Below are positions 16,811 through 62,685 of a DNA stretch of 64,000 bases, one piece after another. The stretch's first letter is position 1, and the number at the start of each line of letters is the position of its first letter. The notes beneath the pieces are model-generated. The model was not told where the DNA came from, did not search any database, and saw nothing but the letters and a program-made list of their open reading frames with translations. Source of the DNA: Fidelibacterota bacterium (GTDB taxonomy: Bacteria; Pseudomonadota; Alphaproteobacteria; Rhodospirillales; Rhodospirillaceae); assembly GCA_947476625.1 (NCBI GenBank), contig CANJRA010000001.1, positions 62,001 through 126,000 of the forward strand, given 5' to 3'. The position numbers and the translations under genes are program-made.

Positions 16811-17412
16811 GCCGGCACCACATTTTTTTCGCGCAGAAATGTCAGCAATTCCAATAGCGGCAGACCTAGAATAGTGAAGAAATCGCCTTCTATACGGCTA
16901 AACAATTGTGCGCCTGGTCCCTCAAGCTGGTAGGCACCGACGGATGTTGTAACCGCAGGTCCTGCCGCTTTTAGATACTCTTCGACAAACGATTCGCTAA
17001 ACGCTCGCATCGTCAGCTTCGGTAAAGCGACGTAGTGCCAGATCCGGATTCCATCCAGCGCGACGCAAACTGCTGTGGGAAGCACATGTGTTTTATCACG
17101 AAGTTTCCGTAAATGGCTGCGTGCGCCGTTTTCATCTGCAGGCTTGTCGAACCATGCCCCGTCGCACTCGAGCATTTGATCTGCACCGATGACAAAGCTT
17201 CCGGGCCGACTTGCTGAAACATGAACCGCCTTGAGTTCGGCGAGCGCTTCAGCGCAGGCTGCAGCGGTAGCGCCCTTAGCTTTCATGGTGTGTTTTACAG
17301 CATCCTCGTCAGCATTGGTCGGCACGATCTCAAAATTAACGCCGGCTGCGCGCAGGAGACTGGCGCGGCTTTTACTGGCTGAGGCCAAGATAATTTTTGA
17401 CGCAGAACTCAT
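16807..17412 (-). CDS. maf: Maf family nucleotide pyrophosphatase
   Basis: 201 aa. Maf proteins hydrolyse nucleoside triphosphates, including modified or non-canonical ones, and affect septation when overproduced. The N-terminal signature IILASASKSRASLLRAAG and the central GADQML motif (Asp as catalytic base) are present, as is the C-terminal EGDFFTILGLPLLEL. Which nucleotides it prefers cannot be told from the sequence. It overlaps ppsR and aroE by 4 bases at each end. Confidence 0.93.
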   Translation of the reverse strand: MSSASKIILASASKSRASLLRAAGVNFEIVPTNADEDAVKHTMKAKGATAAACAEALAELKAVHVSASRPGSFVIGADQMLECDGAWFDKPADENGARSHLRKLRDKTHVLPTAVCVALDGIRIWHYVALPKLTMRAFSESFVEEYLKAAGPAVTTSVGAYQLEGPGAQLFSRIEGDFFTILGLPLLELLTFLREKNVVPA

Positions 17413-18239
17413 GAGACGGTGGTGTTGTGACGTTGGTTATAAAGCTGGATGATGGTCGCCGCGGTTTCCTCAATTGAGCGTCGCGTCACATCAATGACCG
17501 CCCAGTTGTATTTAGCAAAAAGACGGCGGGCCTCAGCTATTTCCTCGCGGATCCCATCAAGATCTGCATAAGCCCCGCCGCGCTTATCATTCATGATTCT
17601 CAGCCGGCTTTGGCGAATATCACTGAGACTTTTAGGCTCGCGCGTCAGACCGACAAAAAGCGGCTTTGTTGCCGTGGCAATATTTTTCGGCAAGGTCATA
17701 CCGGGAATCAAAGGAATATTGCCGACCTTAAATCCACGGTTAGCCAAATACATGCACGTCGGCGTTTTCGACGTACGTGATACGCCGACAATGATCATGT
17801 CGGCGTCGCCCATACTTTCAAGAGACTGACCATCATCGTGTTGCGCCGTGAAATGCATGGCGTCAATACGGCTGAAGTAATCGTCGTCAAGCGCGTGCTG
17901 TTTGCCAACCTCGGATGTAGCCTGACGTTCGAAGAAGCGCGAGAAAGACTGCATCACAGGATCGATCGCCGAGACATACGGCATATGCATATCGCGGCAC
18001 GCATGCTCGAGCATGTCTCTGACTTTCTTATCGAGCAGCGTAAAAACCACCAGACCAGGTGTATTTTTGATGCCCTCGATAACGCGGTTCATTTGACCCG
18101 GTGTACGAACAAGCCACCAAAAATGTTCGGTAACTTGAATATTCTCGTACTGCACAAGACAAGCTCGCGCGATATTCGTGACGGTCTCTCCGGACGAGTC
18201 GGAAACCAGATGCAGATTATAGACGTCGGGCGAGGTCAT
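17409..18239 (-). CDS. PpsR/PDRP family kinase-pyrophosphorylase (RP001 orthologue)
   Basis: 276 aa protein of the DUF299 family, which controls PEP synthase or pyruvate phosphate dikinase by ADP-dependent threonine phosphorylation and phosphate-dependent dephosphorylation. Visible are the N-terminal LVSDSSGETV, the P-loop-like GVSRTSKTPTCMYLA (about 152-166) and the region KSLSDIRQSRLR. Neither target enzyme is in the window. This gene flanks the replication origin in Caulobacter and Rickettsia (RP001), which supports the origin call at 18240-18872. It overlaps maf by 4 bases. Confidence 0.92.
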   Translation of the reverse strand: MTSPDVYNLHLVSDSSGETVTNIARACLVQYENIQVTEHFWWLVRTPGQMNRVIEGIKNTPGLVVFTLLDKKVRDMLEHACRDMHMPYVSAIDPVMQSFSRFFERQATSEVGKQHALDDDYFSRIDAMHFTAQHDDGQSLESMGDADMIIVGVSRTSKTPTCMYLANRGFKVGNIPLIPGMTLPKNIATATKPLFVGLTREPKSLSDIRQSRLRIMNDKRGGAYADLDGIREEIAEARRLFAKYNWAVIDVTRRSIEETAATIIQLYNQRHNTTVS

Positions 18240-18872
18240 GAACGAAGGCCAGGAGCTGTTTTCTAACCACGGGATAAGAAAAGCATTATGGGGATGATTT
18301 GGAACTTTTGCACAGGTGACGCCATTTTTAACACTTAGACCCGCTCTTCATCCCCAGAGTATGAGTTTTGGGATAAGCGGAAGTTCAAACCGTGAATCGC
18401 GCGCACATTTTTTGCCTTGCGAGACGATACCTCATTTTCCACCCTTTCGCATAACTGTGAGACAGCGCGTACTACGGGCTAAAACGAGTTTCGTGCACAG
18501 ATCTATTCACAGGATTTGGAATACGCCAGAACACGCATGCACAATTGGTACAGGTTGGGACCAAGCGGTAATCCATCTGACTCACAGGCATTACTACCTC
18601 CAATACACTTTAAGAATTCTTTTTATATAGATGACGAACACGCCATTCCATGCGGTCAGCGCCAAGCGAACAAGTGTGTTGACTTGAAAACCTGGCTCAG
18701 GTATCGCTGGGATTATCAAGACAGGGCGTTCGCCCAATCACCTTTCCTGGCCTGCTCCTTCCAGATTATTTTACCGCACCTTGTTGCCCAACAGCGCCTT
18801 GACGCTGATTCCGACAAGCGAAACACCTCCTCGGTTTTTCTTTCCACTTAACAATATTATAAGTCTCCCATC
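18240..18872. other. oriC: Putative chromosomal replication origin (oriC)
   Basis: A 633-base gene-free stretch between divergent ppsR/RP001 (minus) and rho (plus). Near-consensus DnaA boxes (TTATNCACA), all on the plus strand: TTTTGCACA (18306-18314, one mismatch), CTATTCACA (18503-18511, one mismatch), TCGTGCACA (18491), GCATGCACA (18535) and TGACTCACA (18578), each of the last three with two. TCCCCA, the Caulobacter W-box core, occurs at 18351 and inverted at 18289. GANTC methylation sites lie at 18394, 18579 and 18807, and a TTAA-N7-ATAA CtrA-like half match at 18848-18862. Genes point outward on both sides, and parA-parB-parS lie about 7 kb away. In Caulobacter the origin lies between hemE and this same RP001 gene; hemE is not here. 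Confidence 0.7.
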
Positions 18873-20135
18873 ATGCATCTTCAGGAATTGAAGCGCAAAA
18901 CCCCCGCAGAACTGCTGGCTTTTGCCGAAGAATACGGAATTGAAAACGCGTCTAACCTGCGCCGGCAGGACTTGATGTTCGGAATCCTGAAGATTATGGC
19001 GGACAAAGATACCGTCATCGACGGTGATGGCGTGCTCGAAATTCTGCAGGACGGCTTCGGCTTTTTGCGTTCTCCTGAAGCGAGTTATCTACCCGGTCCA
19101 GACGACATATATGTGAGCCCAAGCCAAGTCCGCCGCTTTGGATTGCGCACCGGCGATACGGTGGAAGGTCAAATCCGTGGGCCTAAGGACGGCGAACGCT
19201 ATTTCGCTTTGCTCAAGGTCAACACCATCAATTTCGAAGATCCGGACAACGTCCGCCATCGCATCAATTTCGATAACCTGACGCCGCTCTATCCTGACGA
19301 GAAGCTCAAGATGGAGATCGAGCAAAAGGATACAAAAGTTAAGGACATTACCCAGCGTGTCATCGAGTTGGTGGCGCCGCTCGGTAAAGGTCAGCGCGCT
19401 GTGATCGTCGCTCCGCCGCGTACCGGCAAAACCATTATGTTGCAGAATATCGCGGCCGCTATCGCCGCCAACCATCCCGAGGTCTACCTGATCGTGTTGC
19501 TCATCGACGAGCGGCCGGAAGAAGTGACCGACATGGACCGTACGGTAAAAGGCGAAGTCGTCAGCTCAACCTTCGACGAGCCGGCCTCGCGCCACGTTCA
19601 GGTGGCGGAAATGGTGATCGAAAAGGCCAAGCGCCTGGTCGAACACAAACGCGACGTCGTGATTTTGCTCGATTCCATTACGCGCCTTGCGCGCGCCTAC
19701 AACACGGTTGTGCCCTCGTCGGGCAAGGTGTTGACCGGCGGTGTCGATGCCAATGCGTTGCAACGTCCTAAGCGCTTCTTCGGCGCCGCGCGTAACATCG
19801 AGGAAGGCGGTTCGTTGACCATTATCGCTACGGCGCTGATCGATACCGGTAGCCGCATGGACGAAGTCATCTTCGAAGAATTCAAAGGCACGGGTAACTC
19901 GGAAATCGTGCTTGATCGCAAGCTGGCCGACAAACGCGTGTTCCCGTCAATCGACATCACGAAGTCCGGCACCCGTAAAGAAGAACTGCTGGTCAACCAG
20001 GGCACATTGTCGAAGATGTGGATCCTGCGGCGTATTCTGGATCCGATGGGCGTGCAGGACGGCATGGAGTTCTTGCTCGACAAGCTTCGGGAGTCGAAGA
20101 ACAACAACGATTTCTTCGATCGGATGAACAAGTAG
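18873..20135 (+). CDS. rho: Transcription termination factor Rho
   Basis: 420 aa hexameric RNA-dependent ATPase that ends transcription at rut-dependent sites. Domains: N-terminal helical bundle starting [20 protein letters not shown], the cold-shock-like primary RNA-binding fold (about 50-120, [20 protein letters not shown]), and the RecA-like motor with Walker A PPRTGKT (about 178-184) and [13 protein letters not shown]. Length is that of the compact form without insertion. It directly flanks the putative origin on the plus strand, as in other alphaproteobacteria where rho, mnmE, mnmG, rsmG and parAB follow. Confidence 0.98.
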
Positions 20136-25349: not shown

Positions 25350-25365
25350 TGTTTCACGTGAAACA
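25350..25365. other. parS: parS centromere site 1
   Basis: Perfect 16-bp palindrome TGTTTCACGTGAAACA, the canonical chromosomal ParB-binding site. It sits between mnmG and rsmG and includes the GTG start codon of rsmG (25358-25360), so ParB bound here would cover the rsmG translation start region. parB itself is 1.4 kb downstream. Confidence 0.97.
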
Positions 25366-26011
25366 ATATGGCCCTGAGGCCTTCCTACAGGATACCGGTG
25401 TTTCACGTGAAACATTGAGCCGGCTCCAAACCTATGCCGATCTGCTGCTGACCTGGAATAAAAAGATCAACCTTGTTGGCAAGTCTACAGAGGCCGACCT
25501 GTGGCAACGCCACATGCTGGACTCCGCCCAGATTTATCCCCGACTCTATCCCCGAAGTTCCCACAATTCTTCGAAGCTCCTGGACATGGGATCGGGGGCC
25601 GGTTTTCCCGGTCTTGTCCTCGCAATTATGGGCGTCCCTGAAGTCCATCTCGTGGAAGTAGATCAGCGGAAGGCGACCTTCCTACGTGAGGCGGCCCGGG
25701 TAACGGGTGCACCGGTAACGGTTCATGCCAAACGAATCGAAGACGTCCCTGCATTCAAAATTGACGTATTAACGGCTCGCGCACTCGCGCCGCTCGAAGA
25801 TTTGTTAGCTTGGGGCGAGAGATTTTTGGCGGAAAACAGCCACTGCATTTTCCTCAAGGGACAAAATGTAGAGGTTGAATTGACGGAGGCACACAAAAGG
25901 TGGAGAATTTCAGTAGATCAGGTGCCCAGTCGCACCGATCTAAGAGCTTCTCTTCTGCATATTAGTGAGGTGCGCCGTGTCGGACCCGATACAACAGACC
26001 GCTCAGCCTGA
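25358..26011 (+). CDS. rsmG: 16S rRNA (guanine527-N7)-methyltransferase RsmG
   Basis: 217 aa class I SAM methyltransferase (GidB) that methylates G527 of 16S rRNA; loss gives low-level streptomycin resistance in other bacteria. The SAM loop is LLDMGSGAGFPGLVLAIMG (about 70-88), followed by VDQRKATFLREA. The start is a GTG lying inside parS site 1, with no separate Shine-Dalgarno. The N-terminal protein sequence is partly dictated by parS: VKQ from site 1 and GVSRET from site 2 (codons 14-19). Its end overlaps parA by 35 bases. Confidence 0.95.
   Translation: MKQYGPEAFLQDTGVSRETLSRLQTYADLLLTWNKKINLVGKSTEADLWQRHMLDSAQIYPRLYPRSSHNSSKLLDMGSGAGFPGLVLAIMGVPEVHLVEVDQRKATFLREAARVTGAPVTVHAKRIEDVPAFKIDVLTARALAPLEDLLAWGERFLAENSHCIFLKGQNVEVELTEAHKRWRISVDQVPSRTDLRASLLHISEVRRVGPDTTDRSA
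25399..25414. other. parS: parS centromere site 2
   Basis: A second perfect TGTTTCACGTGAAACA, 49 bp from site 1 centre to centre and wholly inside the rsmG coding sequence, where it encodes Val-Ser-Arg-Glu-Thr. Two tandem sites near parAB and about 7 kb from the putative origin are typical of alphaproteobacterial centromeres. Confidence 0.97.
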
Positions 26012-26804
26012 AGCGTCCCGGCGTCCCCGCATCCTCGCCATCTCCAACCAAAAAGGCGGCGTTGGTAAGACCACAACGACGGTCAATCTTGCGACCGCCA
26101 TGGCGGCCGTGAATAAGCGTGTGCTGGTCATCGACATGGACCCGCAGGGTAATGCTTCGACAAGCCTCGGCATCGATCAGAAGCACCGGACCATTAACAT
26201 CTACCATGTGCTGACGGGTGAAGCGACGCTCGACGCCGGCATCGTTCCGACCGCGATCCCCAATCTGAGCGTTATTCCGTCGGGTGTCGACCTGGCCGCC
26301 GCTGAACTCGAGCTGGTGGACTTGGAAAATCGTCAGGCGCGCCTCAAACAAGCCTTTGTAAATCAAGGGGTTGGCTGGGATTTCATTCTCATAGACTGTC
26401 CGCCGTCGCTGGGTCTTTTGACTCTTAATGCCTTAGTCGCCGCCGATGCCGTGATGGTGCCATTACAGACCGAGTTCCTCGCGCTCGAAGGCATCAGTCA
26501 GCTTGTTAAAACCATCGAACGCGTGAAAAAGGCCTTCAACCCGACGCTGGAACTGCAGGGTATCGTCCTGACCATGGTGGACAAACGCAACAACCTGTCC
26601 GAAATGGTCGAGAGCGACGTGCGTGGATTTTTCGGGGCGAAGGTCTACACCACCACTATTCCCCGCAACGTCCGTATTTCCGAAGCCCCTTCTCACGGCA
26701 AGCCTGTGTTGCTTTATGACTTCCAGTCAAAAGGCTCGCGGGCCTATCTTGATCTCGCCAGCGAAGTTTTGAAAAGAGAGAAGAATCAAGGGGTTGCCGC
26801 ATGA
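25977..26804 (+). CDS. parA: Chromosome-partitioning ATPase ParA
   Basis: 275 aa Walker-type ATPase that forms the gradient along which ParB-parS complexes move to segregate origins. The deviant Walker A is KGGVGKTTT in ISNQKGGVGKTTTTVNLATA (about 24-43), followed by VIDMDPQGNASTSLG and the Walker B-like FILIDCPPSLGLLTLNAL. I take the GTG at 25977 (MSDPIQQ) because GAGG lies 7 bases upstream; a GTG at 25965 adds four residues. It overlaps rsmG by 35 bases and parB by 4, so all three are coupled. Confidence 0.96.
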   Translation: MSDPIQQTAQPEASRRPRILAISNQKGGVGKTTTTVNLATAMAAVNKRVLVIDMDPQGNASTSLGIDQKHRTINIYHVLTGEATLDAGIVPTAIPNLSVIPSGVDLAAAELELVDLENRQARLKQAFVNQGVGWDFILIDCPPSLGLLTLNALVAADAVMVPLQTEFLALEGISQLVKTIERVKKAFNPTLELQGIVLTMVDKRNNLSEMVESDVRGFFGAKVYTTTIPRNVRISEAPSHGKPVLLYDFQSKGSRAYLDLASEVLKREKNQGVAA

Positions 26805-27757
26805 ATCCCTCCGATCCCAAACGCAAAAACCTAGGCCGCGGCCTGAATGCCCTATTCGGCGAGGACGCTGACGCCGCGCCCGCCGTGGCTCCTGCCACTG
26901 CACCGGCACCGATAGCAACGCCCGGCTTGCCGGTGACGCGCCTCCCGCTCGACCTCATGTCGCCGTCGCCTTTGCAGCCGCGCCGTCATTTTGATGAAAC
27001 CGCCTTGAATGAGCTATCGGCGTCGATTGCGGAAAAGGGGGTACTTCAGCCTCTTCTCGTCCGGATTGACCCCACCCAGCCGGGCCGTTATGAAATTATC
27101 GCCGGCGAACGTCGGTGGCGTGCATCCCAGCGGGCCAAGATCCACGAGGTGCCGGTTCACGTCACGACGCTGAACGACGCCGAAGTCCTAGAAGTCGCGT
27201 TGATCGAAAACCTTCAGCGCCAGGATTTGACGGCGGTCGAAGAAGCGCGCGGCTACAAGCGCCTGGTTGATGAGTTTGGTCACACGCAAGAACGCGTCGC
27301 CGAGGTTGTCGGCAAGAGCCGCGCCCATGTTGCTAATACATTGCGATTGCTCACTTTACCGTGCGGCGTGCAGGATTTGCTCGATGCTGGCCAAGTCACC
27401 GTCGGCCAAGTTCGCCCCCTCATCGGTATGAGCGATGCCGAATCCATTGCAAAACTCATCGTGAAACGCGGCATGAGCGCCCGGCAGGCGGAAAAATTTG
27501 CCAAAGGCTTTGGCCGCAAGCGCCGTCTCGCACTTGTTGCAAAAGACACCGACACGGTCGCCCTCGAGCAGAGCCTTGAGCAAACTACCGGCTATAAGGT
27601 CAGCATTTCCTTTGACGGTAAGGGCGGCCAGGTTGGCATCGCTTACACCAGCCTCGAACAGCTGGATGACATCGTCCGGCGGCTATCCAACGGCGGCCGT
27701 ATAAAGAGTGCGGTCGACGCCGACGATGAAACGGGCGATCTGCAGCAAGCCTCATAA
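26801..27757 (+). CDS. parB: Chromosome-partitioning protein ParB
   Basis: 318 aa CTP-dependent DNA clamp that loads at parS. N-terminal KNLGRGLNALFGED is the ParA-stimulating motif seen in chromosomal ParBs; a Pro/Ala-rich linker follows. The CTPase domain includes PLQPRRHFDE and IIAGERRWRASQRA with the GERR motif, and ENLQRQDLTAVEEARGY leads into the helix-turn-helix (about 150-215). The C-terminal dimerisation domain is present. Its own parS sites lie at 25350 and 25399. Overlaps parA by ATGA. Confidence 0.97.
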   Translation: MNPSDPKRKNLGRGLNALFGEDADAAPAVAPATAPAPIATPGLPVTRLPLDLMSPSPLQPRRHFDETALNELSASIAEKGVLQPLLVRIDPTQPGRYEIIAGERRWRASQRAKIHEVPVHVTTLNDAEVLEVALIENLQRQDLTAVEEARGYKRLVDEFGHTQERVAEVVGKSRAHVANTLRLLTLPCGVQDLLDAGQVTVGQVRPLIGMSDAESIAKLIVKRGMSARQAEKFAKGFGRKRRLALVAKDTDTVALEQSLEQTTGYKVSISFDGKGGQVGIAYTSLEQLDDIVRRLSNGGRIKSAVDADDETGDLQQAS

Positions 27758-40381: not shown

Positions 40382-40899
40382 ACTTCGAGGACGCTGCTCG
40401 CGGAGACGCTCTGTAAAACGCGCAGAAAATCATCCGGCGTCAATGCAATACACCCCGCCGTTGGCGTGCCGTCTTCGGAGGCGATGTGCATAAAAAGCGC
40501 ACTTCCATTCCCCGGAACGATGGGATCGTCATTGTGTCCTAGAACGACGACCACATCGTACATGCGGTCGTCACGCCACATATGTTCGGCGCTGGCTGCA
40601 TAGGGCAGCTTCACGGGCTTGTTATAAGAAGCGTCGGCTGGGTCATCGCACCACCCGTCGTCGCGCGCGATGGGGGTCGCATTCAGATGTGTAGGCGGCA
40701 AGCTCACGCGATCGGCGCGGTAAAGTACGTGCCGCAAGGAAAATGTACCGACGGGTGTCGCGCCGTCACCTTCGTGCTTATCGCGGCGCACGCCTGCACG
40801 TCCCAGAACGCACGGCAACCGCATGTCTCCACACCGCAACGTGCCGCGCTGCGGCTGCAGAGGATCGGCGGTCACGTGCAGATGAGATACCAATGTCAT
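40369..40899 (-). CDS. L,D-transpeptidase family (YkuD-like) protein
   Basis: 176 aa. The catalytic motif is HIASEDGTPTAGCIAL, matching the HxnS...hGCx(R/A) pattern with nucleophile Cys about residue 155; RRDKHEGDGATPVGTFSL is the family's N-terminal block. L,D-transpeptidases form 3-3 peptidoglycan cross-links or attach lipoproteins. There is no visible signal peptide (the N terminus is MTLVSHLHVTADP), so either it is exported by another route or it acts in an unusual place; many short alphaproteobacterial members look like this. Confidence 0.85.
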   Translation of the reverse strand: MTLVSHLHVTADPLQPQRGTLRCGDMRLPCVLGRAGVRRDKHEGDGATPVGTFSLRHVLYRADRVSLPPTHLNATPIARDDGWCDDPADASYNKPVKLPYAASAEHMWRDDRMYDVVVVLGHNDDPIVPGNGSALFMHIASEDGTPTAGCIALTPDDFLRVLQSVSASSVLEVQSA

Positions 40900-61188: not shown

Positions 61189-62685
61189 ATGACCCATTCG
61201 GCCGCCTCAGATTCCGATGACCTTGCCGCGCTGCTCGCGCGCTTCGCCGGGCGTAGTGTGTTGTGCGTGGGCGATGTGATGGTTGACCATTCGCTTTACG
61301 GCGATGTCAAACGCATCTCGCCGGAAGCGCCTGTACCGGTCGTACGTATCACACGCGAGGAAAGTGAACTCGGGGGCGCCGGCAATGTCGTGCGAAACCT
61401 TGCCGCGCTCGGCGCACGTTGCGCATTTGTCGCCGCGGTCGGTGACGACCGTGCTGGCCGCGACGTCGGCAACATGTTGGCGCAGCTGCCTGGCGTCGAG
61501 CCTTACTTGCGCGTTTCCAAGCGCCGCGAGACCACAGTTAAAAGTCGTTTCTTTAGCCAGGACGGGCAACAGCTGCTACGTGCCGACCGCGAGACCGTTG
61601 CGGAATTGTCGCCCGAAGGCTTGAAAGATTTGGAGCGCGCGGTCACCGCGCAAATCGCCGAATGCGACGCGGTTATTTTGTCTGACTATGGCAAGGGTGT
61701 GTTGACCGGCAGTCTTGCCGCGATGGTTATCGCCTGCGCGCGCAAAGCCAACAAGCCGGTCATCGTTGATCCCAAAGGCAACGACTATGCGCGCTATCGC
61801 GGTGCGACCGTTATTACACCCAACCGCGCCGAGTTGGCCGATGCCATAAAATTACCGGTCGATGATGAGGAACGCTTAGTAGCCGCGGCGAAATCCTTGC
61901 GCTCTCAGATCGGCATCGACGCGGTTCTGGTGACGCGCTCAGGCGAGGGCATGACGCTGCTCGATAAAGATACGCTTACGCATTTACCGGCAGAAACACG
62001 CGAGGTTGCCGACGTTACCGGCGCCGGCGATACGGTCGTTGCGACGCTTACGCTTGCGATTGCCAGTGGCGCCGATCTGCTTTCCGCGGCGCGGCTTGCA
62101 AACATTGCTGCGGGCATTGTTGTCGGACGTCATGGTACTGCCGTCGCTACGCCGGCCGATATCGCGGCAGCTCTGCGCCAAGACCAACGTGCGGATGCCG
62201 ACAACAAAGTCAGCGACCGCGGCGGCATGACGGCGCGCGCCATGGAGTGGCGGCGTCAGGGATTGAAGGTCGGGTTTACGAATGGCTGTTTCGATCTGCT
62301 TCACCCCGGCCATATCTCTCTGCTGCGTGAAGCGCGCGCGGCATGCGACAAGCTGGTAGTGGGCCTCAATAGCGACGCTTCTATAAAACGCCTGAAGGGC
62401 CCAGACCGCCCGGTGCAAAACGAAAGCGCGCGTGCCGCCGTCATGGCATCGCTGTCTTCCGTCGACCTGGTCGTCATTTTCGGCGAAGATACACCCGGCG
62501 CACTGATCGAGGTCTTGCGCCCGGATGTGCTGGTGAAGGGCGCCGACTACACACGGTCGCAGGTCGTCGGCGGGGACTTTGTCGAGAATTATGGCGGCAG
62601 GGTGGTTCTGGCGGAGATCCTTCCGTCTCATTCCACCACGGCGACCATTGCCGCTGCGAAGACGGCAAAATCGGCAAAGAGCTGA
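61189..62685 (+). CDS. hldE: Bifunctional heptose-7-phosphate kinase / heptose-1-phosphate adenylyltransferase
   Basis: 498 aa. The N-terminal ribokinase-like domain (about 1-330) carries ELGGAGNVVRNLAALGARCAF and the catalytic DVTGAGDTVVATLTLA; the C-terminal cytidylyltransferase-like domain begins with VGFTNGCFDLLHPGHISLLR (HxGH, about 364). HldE makes ADP-heptose for the LPS inner core. ATG at 61189 is chosen over a TTG 7 codons earlier, though neither has a strong Shine-Dalgarno. HldD (epimerase) and gmhB are not here. Confidence 0.95.
   Translation: MTHSAASDSDDLAALLARFAGRSVLCVGDVMVDHSLYGDVKRISPEAPVPVVRITREESELGGAGNVVRNLAALGARCAFVAAVGDDRAGRDVGNMLAQLPGVEPYLRVSKRRETTVKSRFFSQDGQQLLRADRETVAELSPEGLKDLERAVTAQIAECDAVILSDYGKGVLTGSLAAMVIACARKANKPVIVDPKGNDYARYRGATVITPNRAELADAIKLPVDDEERLVAAAKSLRSQIGIDAVLVTRSGEGMTLLDKDTLTHLPAETREVADVTGAGDTVVATLTLAIASGADLLSAARLANIAAGIVVGRHGTAVATPADIAAALRQDQRADADNKVSDRGGMTARAMEWRRQGLKVGFTNGCFDLLHPGHISLLREARAACDKLVVGLNSDASIKRLKGPDRPVQNESARAAVMASLSSVDLVVIFGEDTPGALIEVLRPDVLVKGADYTRSQVVGGDFVENYGGRVVLAEILPSHSTTATIAAAKTAKSAKS

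Follow-up and report, generated by a model that had tools for sequence, protein, structure and literature searches.

Gene content and setting of the ppsR–rho gap

The stretch of DNA analysed here (the window, 64,000 nucleotides) comprises positions 62,001–126,000 of contig C1 of a draft genome, G000, whose assembly has 2,616,184 bp in 50 contigs. Contig C1 (453,664 bp; 453 kb) was assembled here by joining adjacent stretches. In the window, a gap of 633 bp separates two genes arranged head to head: ppsR, the RP001 orthologue, reaches to 18239 on the minus strand, and rho starts at 18873 on the plus strand. The features of the locus are listed below; conservation of boxes and motifs was counted over 22 aligned rho-type gaps, the window's own included.

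17409–18239, minus strand: ppsR/RP001 orthologue (COG1806; Kinase-PPPase PF03618, Pfam E 3.5e-90)
18240–18872, no strand: putative oriC gap between ppsR/RP001 and rho
18306–18314, plus strand: DnaA-like box TTTTGCACA, 1 mismatch; CACA end kept in 10/22
18394–18398, no strand: GANTC (CcrM) site, kept in 16/22
18491–18499, plus strand: DnaA-like box TCGTGCACA, 2 mismatches; CACA end kept in 12/22
18503–18511, plus strand: DnaA-like box CTATTCACA, 1 mismatch; CACA end kept in 11/22
18535–18543, plus strand: box GCATGCACA of the original prediction, not conserved; CACA end in 2/22
18569–18577, plus strand: degenerate upstream core box TAATCCATC, recognised by eye; L087 (Nisaea) has TAATCCACA here
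18578–18586, plus strand: core DnaA-like box TGACTCACA, which contains a GANTC site (GACTC); CACA end in 18/22, GANTC in 16/22
18587–18602, plus strand: GC spacer (GGCA) and trio-like triplets (TTA, CTA), degenerate; from the alignment
18590–18629, no strand: least stable 40-mer, candidate DNA unwinding element
18679–18707, plus strand: conserved TTGACT-N17-TATCGC, probable rho promoter; from the alignment, by eye
18873–20135, plus strand: rho, the present neighbour on the other side of the gap (PF07497, PF07498, PF00006)
25350–25414, no strand: two perfect parS sites, at 25350 and 25399
25965–27757, plus strand: parA (from 25965) and parB (from 26801)

Pfam searches identified maf, aroE, coaE, and a dnaQ-type exonuclease gene to the left of the gap and mnmE, gidA, and then parA and parB to the right. 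The original prediction had placed the gap beside the RP001 gene that ends a maf-aroE-coaE-dnaQ block, with rho and not hemE opposite; the domains found agree with both statements, and the coordinates were exact. The AT content of the gap was 52.9%, compared with 40.5% for contig C1, and thus lies above that of the genome as is asked of an origin. The closest named relatives of rho among the 80 matches listed were Rhodospirillales-type alphaproteobacteria (84%), in a listing that may leave out records very near the window's own genome; on this basis, the source is taken to be an alphaproteobacterium close to the Rhodospirillales.

A ppsR gene was present in 54 of the 61 genomes searched. In the best 30 of 55 matches, its neighbour was rho in 22 cases (own genome included) and hemE in seven, and in one case the contig ended there. 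No ppsR relative was found on viral contigs. A search of 18200–18950 against Rfam gave no credible match, the single one (E 0.53) being far under its cut-off.

DnaA-like boxes and other motifs

Five TTATNCACA-like boxes with a CACA end lay on the plus strand of the gap, at 18306 and 18503 with one mismatch and at 18491, 18535, and 18578 with two; the several DnaA boxes expected of an origin are thus represented by five weak ones, and no box without a mismatch was found in the gap. Against 1000 first-order Markov shuffles, the number of boxes with at most one mismatch was not unusual (2 vs. 0.59 expected, P 0.11), and that with at most two was raised (13 vs. 6.5 expected, P 0.017). The gap was also the densest same-strand cluster of CACA-ending boxes on contig C1, with 5–6 per 633 bp, the next best (4 per 633 bp) being at 218.4 kb. 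All five boxes had been predicted; the one at 18578 proved well conserved, and the one at 18535 did not. The sole perfect TTATNCACA box of the window was located at 40485 on the minus strand, away from the gap.

The predicted TCCCCA motifs were found once per strand, at 18351 (plus) and 18289 (minus). A CtrA-like TTAA-N7-ATAA, likewise predicted, was present at 18848 but was kept in none of the 21 relatives, and the gap alignment contained no conserved CtrA site; CtrA control via 18848 was therefore rejected. Predicted alphaproteobacterial origins with zero CtrA sites have been reported (PMC1914354), so we did not treat such sites as defining. The IHF consensus WATCAN5WTR matched once in the window's gap (18287, minus strand). 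Matches occurred in 8/22 gaps, were scattered over differing places, and gave no consistent IHF site.

A conserved core in the gap and in related gaps

The mean identity to the window over the 22 aligned rho-type gaps was 0.47. The best-conserved 20-base windows fell in the core at about 18565–18599 (identity up to 0.77) and at 18715–18735, behind the rho promoter (0.76); identity was intermediate at 18260–18319 (0.58–0.63). The functional centre of the gap is 18569–18632, where tandem degenerate DnaA boxes are followed by a 4-bp spacer, trio-like triplets, and then an AT-rich stretch. The AT-rich stretch, with an identity of 0.48–0.60, was preserved in kind more than in letters, and its 40-mer at 18590–18629 was less stable than 99.994% of the 40-mers of contig C1. 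In L087 (Nisaea), TAATCCACA is followed directly by GGACTCACA, as judged by eye; this comparison suggests that TAATCCATC and TGACTCACA of the window form a tandem pair.

A profile was built from the cores of 17 relatives, leaving out the window genome, L020, L021, L023, and L024. On contig C1 and 20 kb of contig C5, it gave one match above threshold, at window positions 18567–18626 (E 7.6e-10), and the next match had an E of 1.4. Across the entire G000 draft assembly, BLAST likewise found one copy of the core. The same profile was compared with nine hemE-type gaps of family or order relatives and matched the expected core in five of them (L026, 18.2 bits; L114 of G052, 14.0; L029, 13.6; L031, 10.5; L025, 5.8), the maximum in 245 shuffled gaps being 4.4 bits. 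It missed the core in the other four: L027 had a match of 3.8 bits elsewhere, and three had none. The sequence TTATCCACA occurred in the core region of three of these nine gaps (L025, L031, L114), with one mismatch in L026 and L029 and with two in L028 and L123; it was absent from two.

Among the named loci, the profile found the core in 8 of 35 hemE-type gaps with 4.6–21.0 bits, all above the shuffles (Nisaea L087, 21.0; Nitrospirillum L045, 15.8; L068, L096, and L082, 12.5–13.3; L035, 10.0; Dongia L078, 9.8; L066, 4.6). It missed the core in 27/35 named hemE-type and in all 5/5 named rho-type gaps.

Loss of hemE from the locus

In place of hemE, rho stands on the other side of the gap, and the hemE gene of G000 is located on contig C5 (L120, 23896–24897). 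A contig other than that of ppsR carried hemE in the own genome, in the eight genomes of the same genus searched, and in G020; no hemE was found in the family members G019, G022, and G024. In G024, hemB was also absent. Since criterion a, as given in the available part of PMC1914354, asks for either COG1806 or hemE, and the PF03618 gene adjoins the gap, we regard hemE as the usual neighbour and not as a defining one.

We infer that the locus derives from an ancestral ppsR-oriC-hemE arrangement and that rho came to border the gap through the loss of hemE. The HemE protein of G000 had 38–42% identity to the origin-linked HemE of seven hemE-type loci. Its nearest PDB entries were 2INF (301 bits) and 3CYV (300 bits), which we take to be from Bacillus and from an enterobacterium, respectively; for the HemE of G052, the nearest entry was 4EXQ, and 2INF was the last of its 20 matches. 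Judged from these comparisons, the present hemE of G000 is likely a replacement acquired by transfer. Of 80 named loci, 40 had both ppsR and the next gene in reach, and five of these also showed adjacency of ppsR and rho: two of Bradyrhizobium (L051, L053), one of Rhodopseudomonas (L052), one of Bartonella (L088), and L090.

parS sites, gene order, and dnaA

The parS sites and the parA and parB genes lie 6.5–8.9 kb from the gap, with both perfect parS sites at approximately 6.5 kb, close to the 7 kb originally estimated. The window's draft genome contained no other parS match with one mismatch or fewer. Matches to parS were found in 14/14 genomes and, in 13/14, at most 20 kb from ppsR on one contig; in G022, ppsR and parS were on separate contigs. 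Away from ppsR, there was a perfect match in G024, and there were one-mismatch matches in G015 and G052.

Gene order was compared using relatives' contigs that were sampled and not complete. All sampled orthologues kept their side of the gap in G016 (188/188) and G003 (154/154). Between G000 and G020, a family relative, 31 of 129 sampled orthologues were on the opposite side, and all 31 were flipped; relative to the gap, their positions are +175 to +274 kb in G000 and −209 to −340 kb in G020. Symmetric inversions centre on the origin or the terminus, so this inversion fixes the axis only and would suit a terminus equally well. Another inversion, specific to G000, comprised 23 orthologues flipped on the same side, at about 190–241 kb of C1. 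From about 190 to 374 kb, C1 showed strong alternating blocks of GC skew (+0.164, −0.170, +0.163); the first (about 190–243 kb) is inverted relative to G016, G003, and G020, and the others are collinear with G016.

The dnaA gene is on the same contig, 147 kb from the gap. Domain IV of DnaA had IGRAFGG and MSSARR in 13/13 rho-type genomes examined; of eight other genomes, seven had IGRKFGG and six had MHSARR. Since DnaA of E. coli also has alanine at this domain IV position, a changed DnaA specificity was rejected and is not claimed.

Other direction markers were of little use. A search for SSU rRNA found the gene in 0/9 genomes (and in 9/14 controls, Caulobacter not among them, which makes the absence uninformative). 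In all five genomes searched within the genus, ribosomal protein L2 was on a contig other than that of the origin, and KOPS-like octamers were too few.

GC and T-A skew

In the closed genome of the order-level relative G052 (3.83 Mb), skew was strong and of ordinary sign, and a single skew origin at the hemE-type gap accommodated every one of the 22 stretches sampled. Raw GC skew was minus in 12 stretches, which span 1.45 to 3.42 Mb, and plus in the remaining 10; the minus-to-plus switch fell at the homologous gap (−0.070 to +0.105); on both sides of dnaA, approximately 410 kb from the gap, it was plus.

In the window's genus, GC skew was weak, and near the gap it was reversed (C-rich leading strand) in G000, G016, and G003. 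The leading minus lagging contrast at fourfold sites was −0.079 [−0.126, −0.033] within 80 kb in G000, −0.071 [−0.105, −0.038] within 150 kb in G016, and −0.094 [−0.127, −0.062] within 250 kb in G003, these distances being picked from eight tried. In G000, the contrast was negative within 40, 80, and 100 kb and indistinguishable from zero from 150 kb on; in G016, it was negative up to 250 kb and not different from zero at 500 kb; in G003, it was negative at every distance tried. It was about zero in G020, +0.038 and not significant in G015 (28 genes), and reversed (−0.120) in G024, of which only the left side was sampled. In other family or order genomes, raw GC skew at the flanks had the ordinary sign in G028, G034, and G023 and weakly in G019, and was ambiguous in G030 and G046; among these six, only G034 and G046 had a fourfold contrast that was both significant and of ordinary sign.

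Over the first 190 kb of C1, GC skew changed from plus to minus with the best split at 84.7 kb (P 0.005), and in G003 it did so at 285 kb, with the gap at 313 kb (P < 0.0005). The best GC split of the G016 contig was origin-like, at 77.6 kb and 172 kb off the gap (P 0.04); that of the whole G000 contig with its own inversion turned back was origin-like at 285 kb. The GC-skew analysis around 18.5 kb proposed as a check of the original prediction showed no minus-to-plus switch at the gap, the skew being reversed in G000, G016, and G003 and the switch absent in G020; this outcome speaks against the origin reading. Such a switch is not among the criteria in the available part of PMC1914354, which describes GC skew as insufficient for several alphaproteobacteria.

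T-A skew at fourfold sites behaved differently in G000. Over the first 190 kb of C1, the best split was origin-like at 76.3 kb (P 0.0005), with the gap at 80.6 kb. For the whole of C1 as it stands, the best split was at 245 kb (V 824, vs. 789 at the gap); when the G000-specific inversion was turned back in the counts, it was again at 76.3 kb. G003 had an origin-like T-A split at 288 kb (gap at 313 kb, P 0.04), and the split was not significant in G016 and G020, although the leading-lagging contrast over the G020 contig was positive (0.10, interval above 0). On the plainest reading, the replication-linked GC bias would have changed in this lineage. G000 provides a case in which GC skew near the origin is opposite in sign and T-A skew of the same genome is not. 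A limited literature search, which included the available part of PMC2031905, found no work treating this lineage by title.

The gap as a probable replication origin

Taken together, the sequence comparisons indicate, with a probability of about 0.93, that this alphaproteobacterium starts replicating its chromosome in the gap 18240–18872. The origin reading, already put forward in the original prediction, draws support from the single core, the instability of its duplex, the skew flip in G052, parS, the symmetry of the inversion, and the T-A skew of G000. Conservation of the gap in relatives, proposed earlier as a comparison, held for the core 18569–18632 and failed for the CtrA-like site and the box at 18535. 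The origin is very probably of the known alphaproteobacterial hemE/RP001 type, without its usual neighbour hemE. The origin would thereby be located in a lineage for which GC skew is a misleading guide, and its core would have outlived the loss of the best-known landmark gene.

The gap could instead be no more than a regulatory region between the divergent genes ppsR and rho, its boxes being sites of DnaA-regulated promoters and the origin lying elsewhere, for example near dnaA. Such a reading would fit the promoter-like pair conserved ahead of rho, the GC skew, which is not origin-like at the gap, and the presence of dnaA on the same contig. Nevertheless, the conserved core is separate from the rho promoter, being located upstream of it, and is also present in gaps bordered by hemE instead of rho. 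The profile found no second core on C1, dnaA included, and in G052 the sampled skew flips at the gap and not at dnaA; an origin at dnaA was rejected on these grounds, and we consider the regulatory reading as a whole improbable. Still far less probable is that the gap is the replication terminus in this genus, as the sign of GC skew would have it. The plus-to-minus changes in the first 190 kb of G000 and near the gap of G003 are what a terminus would give, but parS, parAB, and the core cluster at the gap, T-A skew is origin-signed in both genomes, and in G052 the skew origin falls at the homologous gap.

With the gap taken as the origin, DnaA would bind the row of weak boxes at 18306–18586, and the last pair (18569–18586) would load it onto the adjacent trio-like strand. 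DnaA would then open the AT-rich stretch at 18590–18629, where the helicase would be loaded, and parS with ParAB, 6.5–8.9 kb away, would segregate the new origins; rho, with its own promoter at 18679–18707, would have bordered the origin since the loss of hemE. Binding, opening at 18590–18629, and timing are deduced here, and loading and opening at the core are modelled on the basal unwinding system (BUS) of B. subtilis.

Comparison with known origins

With the Caulobacter/Rickettsia-type oriC, located between hemE and RP001/COG1806, the gap shares the RP001 adjacency, a cluster of weak DnaA boxes, an AT-rich stretch, GANTC sites, and nearby parS/parAB. It differs in having rho for hemE, no conserved CtrA site, and a weak, locally reversed GC skew. 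The core box TGACTCACA has a T to G change at position 2. This is presumably the same position as that of the T to G change in the G-boxes of Caulobacter. There, according to the available part of PMC4468827, the substitution is conserved and lowers affinity.

The order of elements is that of the BUS (DnaA boxes, spacer, DnaA-trios): tandem boxes, a 4-bp GC spacer, trio-like triplets, and an AT-rich stretch. The published rule, as given in the available part of PMC8287927, asks for a box with at most two mismatches to TTATCCACA and at least three trios within 16 bp. The core deviates in both respects, with three mismatches in TGACTCACA and only two consecutive trios (TTA, CTA). Elsewhere in the window's gap there was a match to the rule, as there was somewhere in 12/22 clade gaps (5.95 in shuffles); because shuffles match too often by chance, the rule discriminates little and was rejected as a deciding test.

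GANTC sites at the putative unwinding core

GANTC sites were found at 18394, 18579, and 18807, the three that had been predicted, and were kept in 16/22, 16/22, and 5/22 gaps, respectively. The 22 gaps had 97 sites (6.95 per kb, vs. 2.19 per kb on C1). In zones of 100 bp around the least stable 40-mer of each gap, the density was 16.8 per kb (37 sites, at least one in 22/22 gaps), and seven control pentamers of like composition occurred 1–8 times. Named loci had GANTC in 22/35 hemE-type zones (40 sites; controls 3–14) and 4/5 rho-type zones (9 sites; controls 0–4), i.e., at the least stable part of 26/40 gaps (40 loci between L033 and L111). The hemE-type zones of family and order relatives showed no enrichment (2/9 gaps, 2 sites; controls 0–5). 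Like zones in other intergenic stretches, a control covering C1 alone, had GANTC in 39/139. The origin gaps are related, so these counts are not independent.

The core box of the clade reads TGACTCACA, whereas that of three order-level relatives reads TTATCCACA; the change creates the GANTC site inside the box. A candidate CcrM, found by its RAMA domain, was encoded in 13/13 genomes. GANTC sites in the Caulobacter origin are already known from the available part of PMC3973325, which also reports that replication control stayed normal in Caulobacter when ccrM was lost and so counts against a methylation switch. A review, available in part, describes repABC origins as rich in GANTC; in a limited search of partly available literature, no statement was found that GANTC centres on the chromosomal unwinding element.

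Speculatively, with GANTC inside the core box, methylation by CcrM might touch origin firing. It is a tentative and rather doubtful proposal that GANTC at the border of DnaA box and unwinding element serves in many alphaproteobacterial origins as a once-per-cycle CcrM methylation gate, similar to Dam/SeqA. If it did, the difference between fresh, hemimethylated origins and fully methylated ones would fall precisely at the site of duplex opening by DnaA. The counts point to a placement of CcrM sites at the unwinding core that can be tested.

A probable rho promoter and a possible leader

A consensus promoter scanner called no promoter in 18200–18900, the conserved pair at 18679–18707 having been recognised in the alignment. 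Just downstream of it, a conserved stretch was observed at 18700–18740, in which GGGCGTTCGCCC can form a hairpin; by its sequence, this stretch is possibly a rho leader element.
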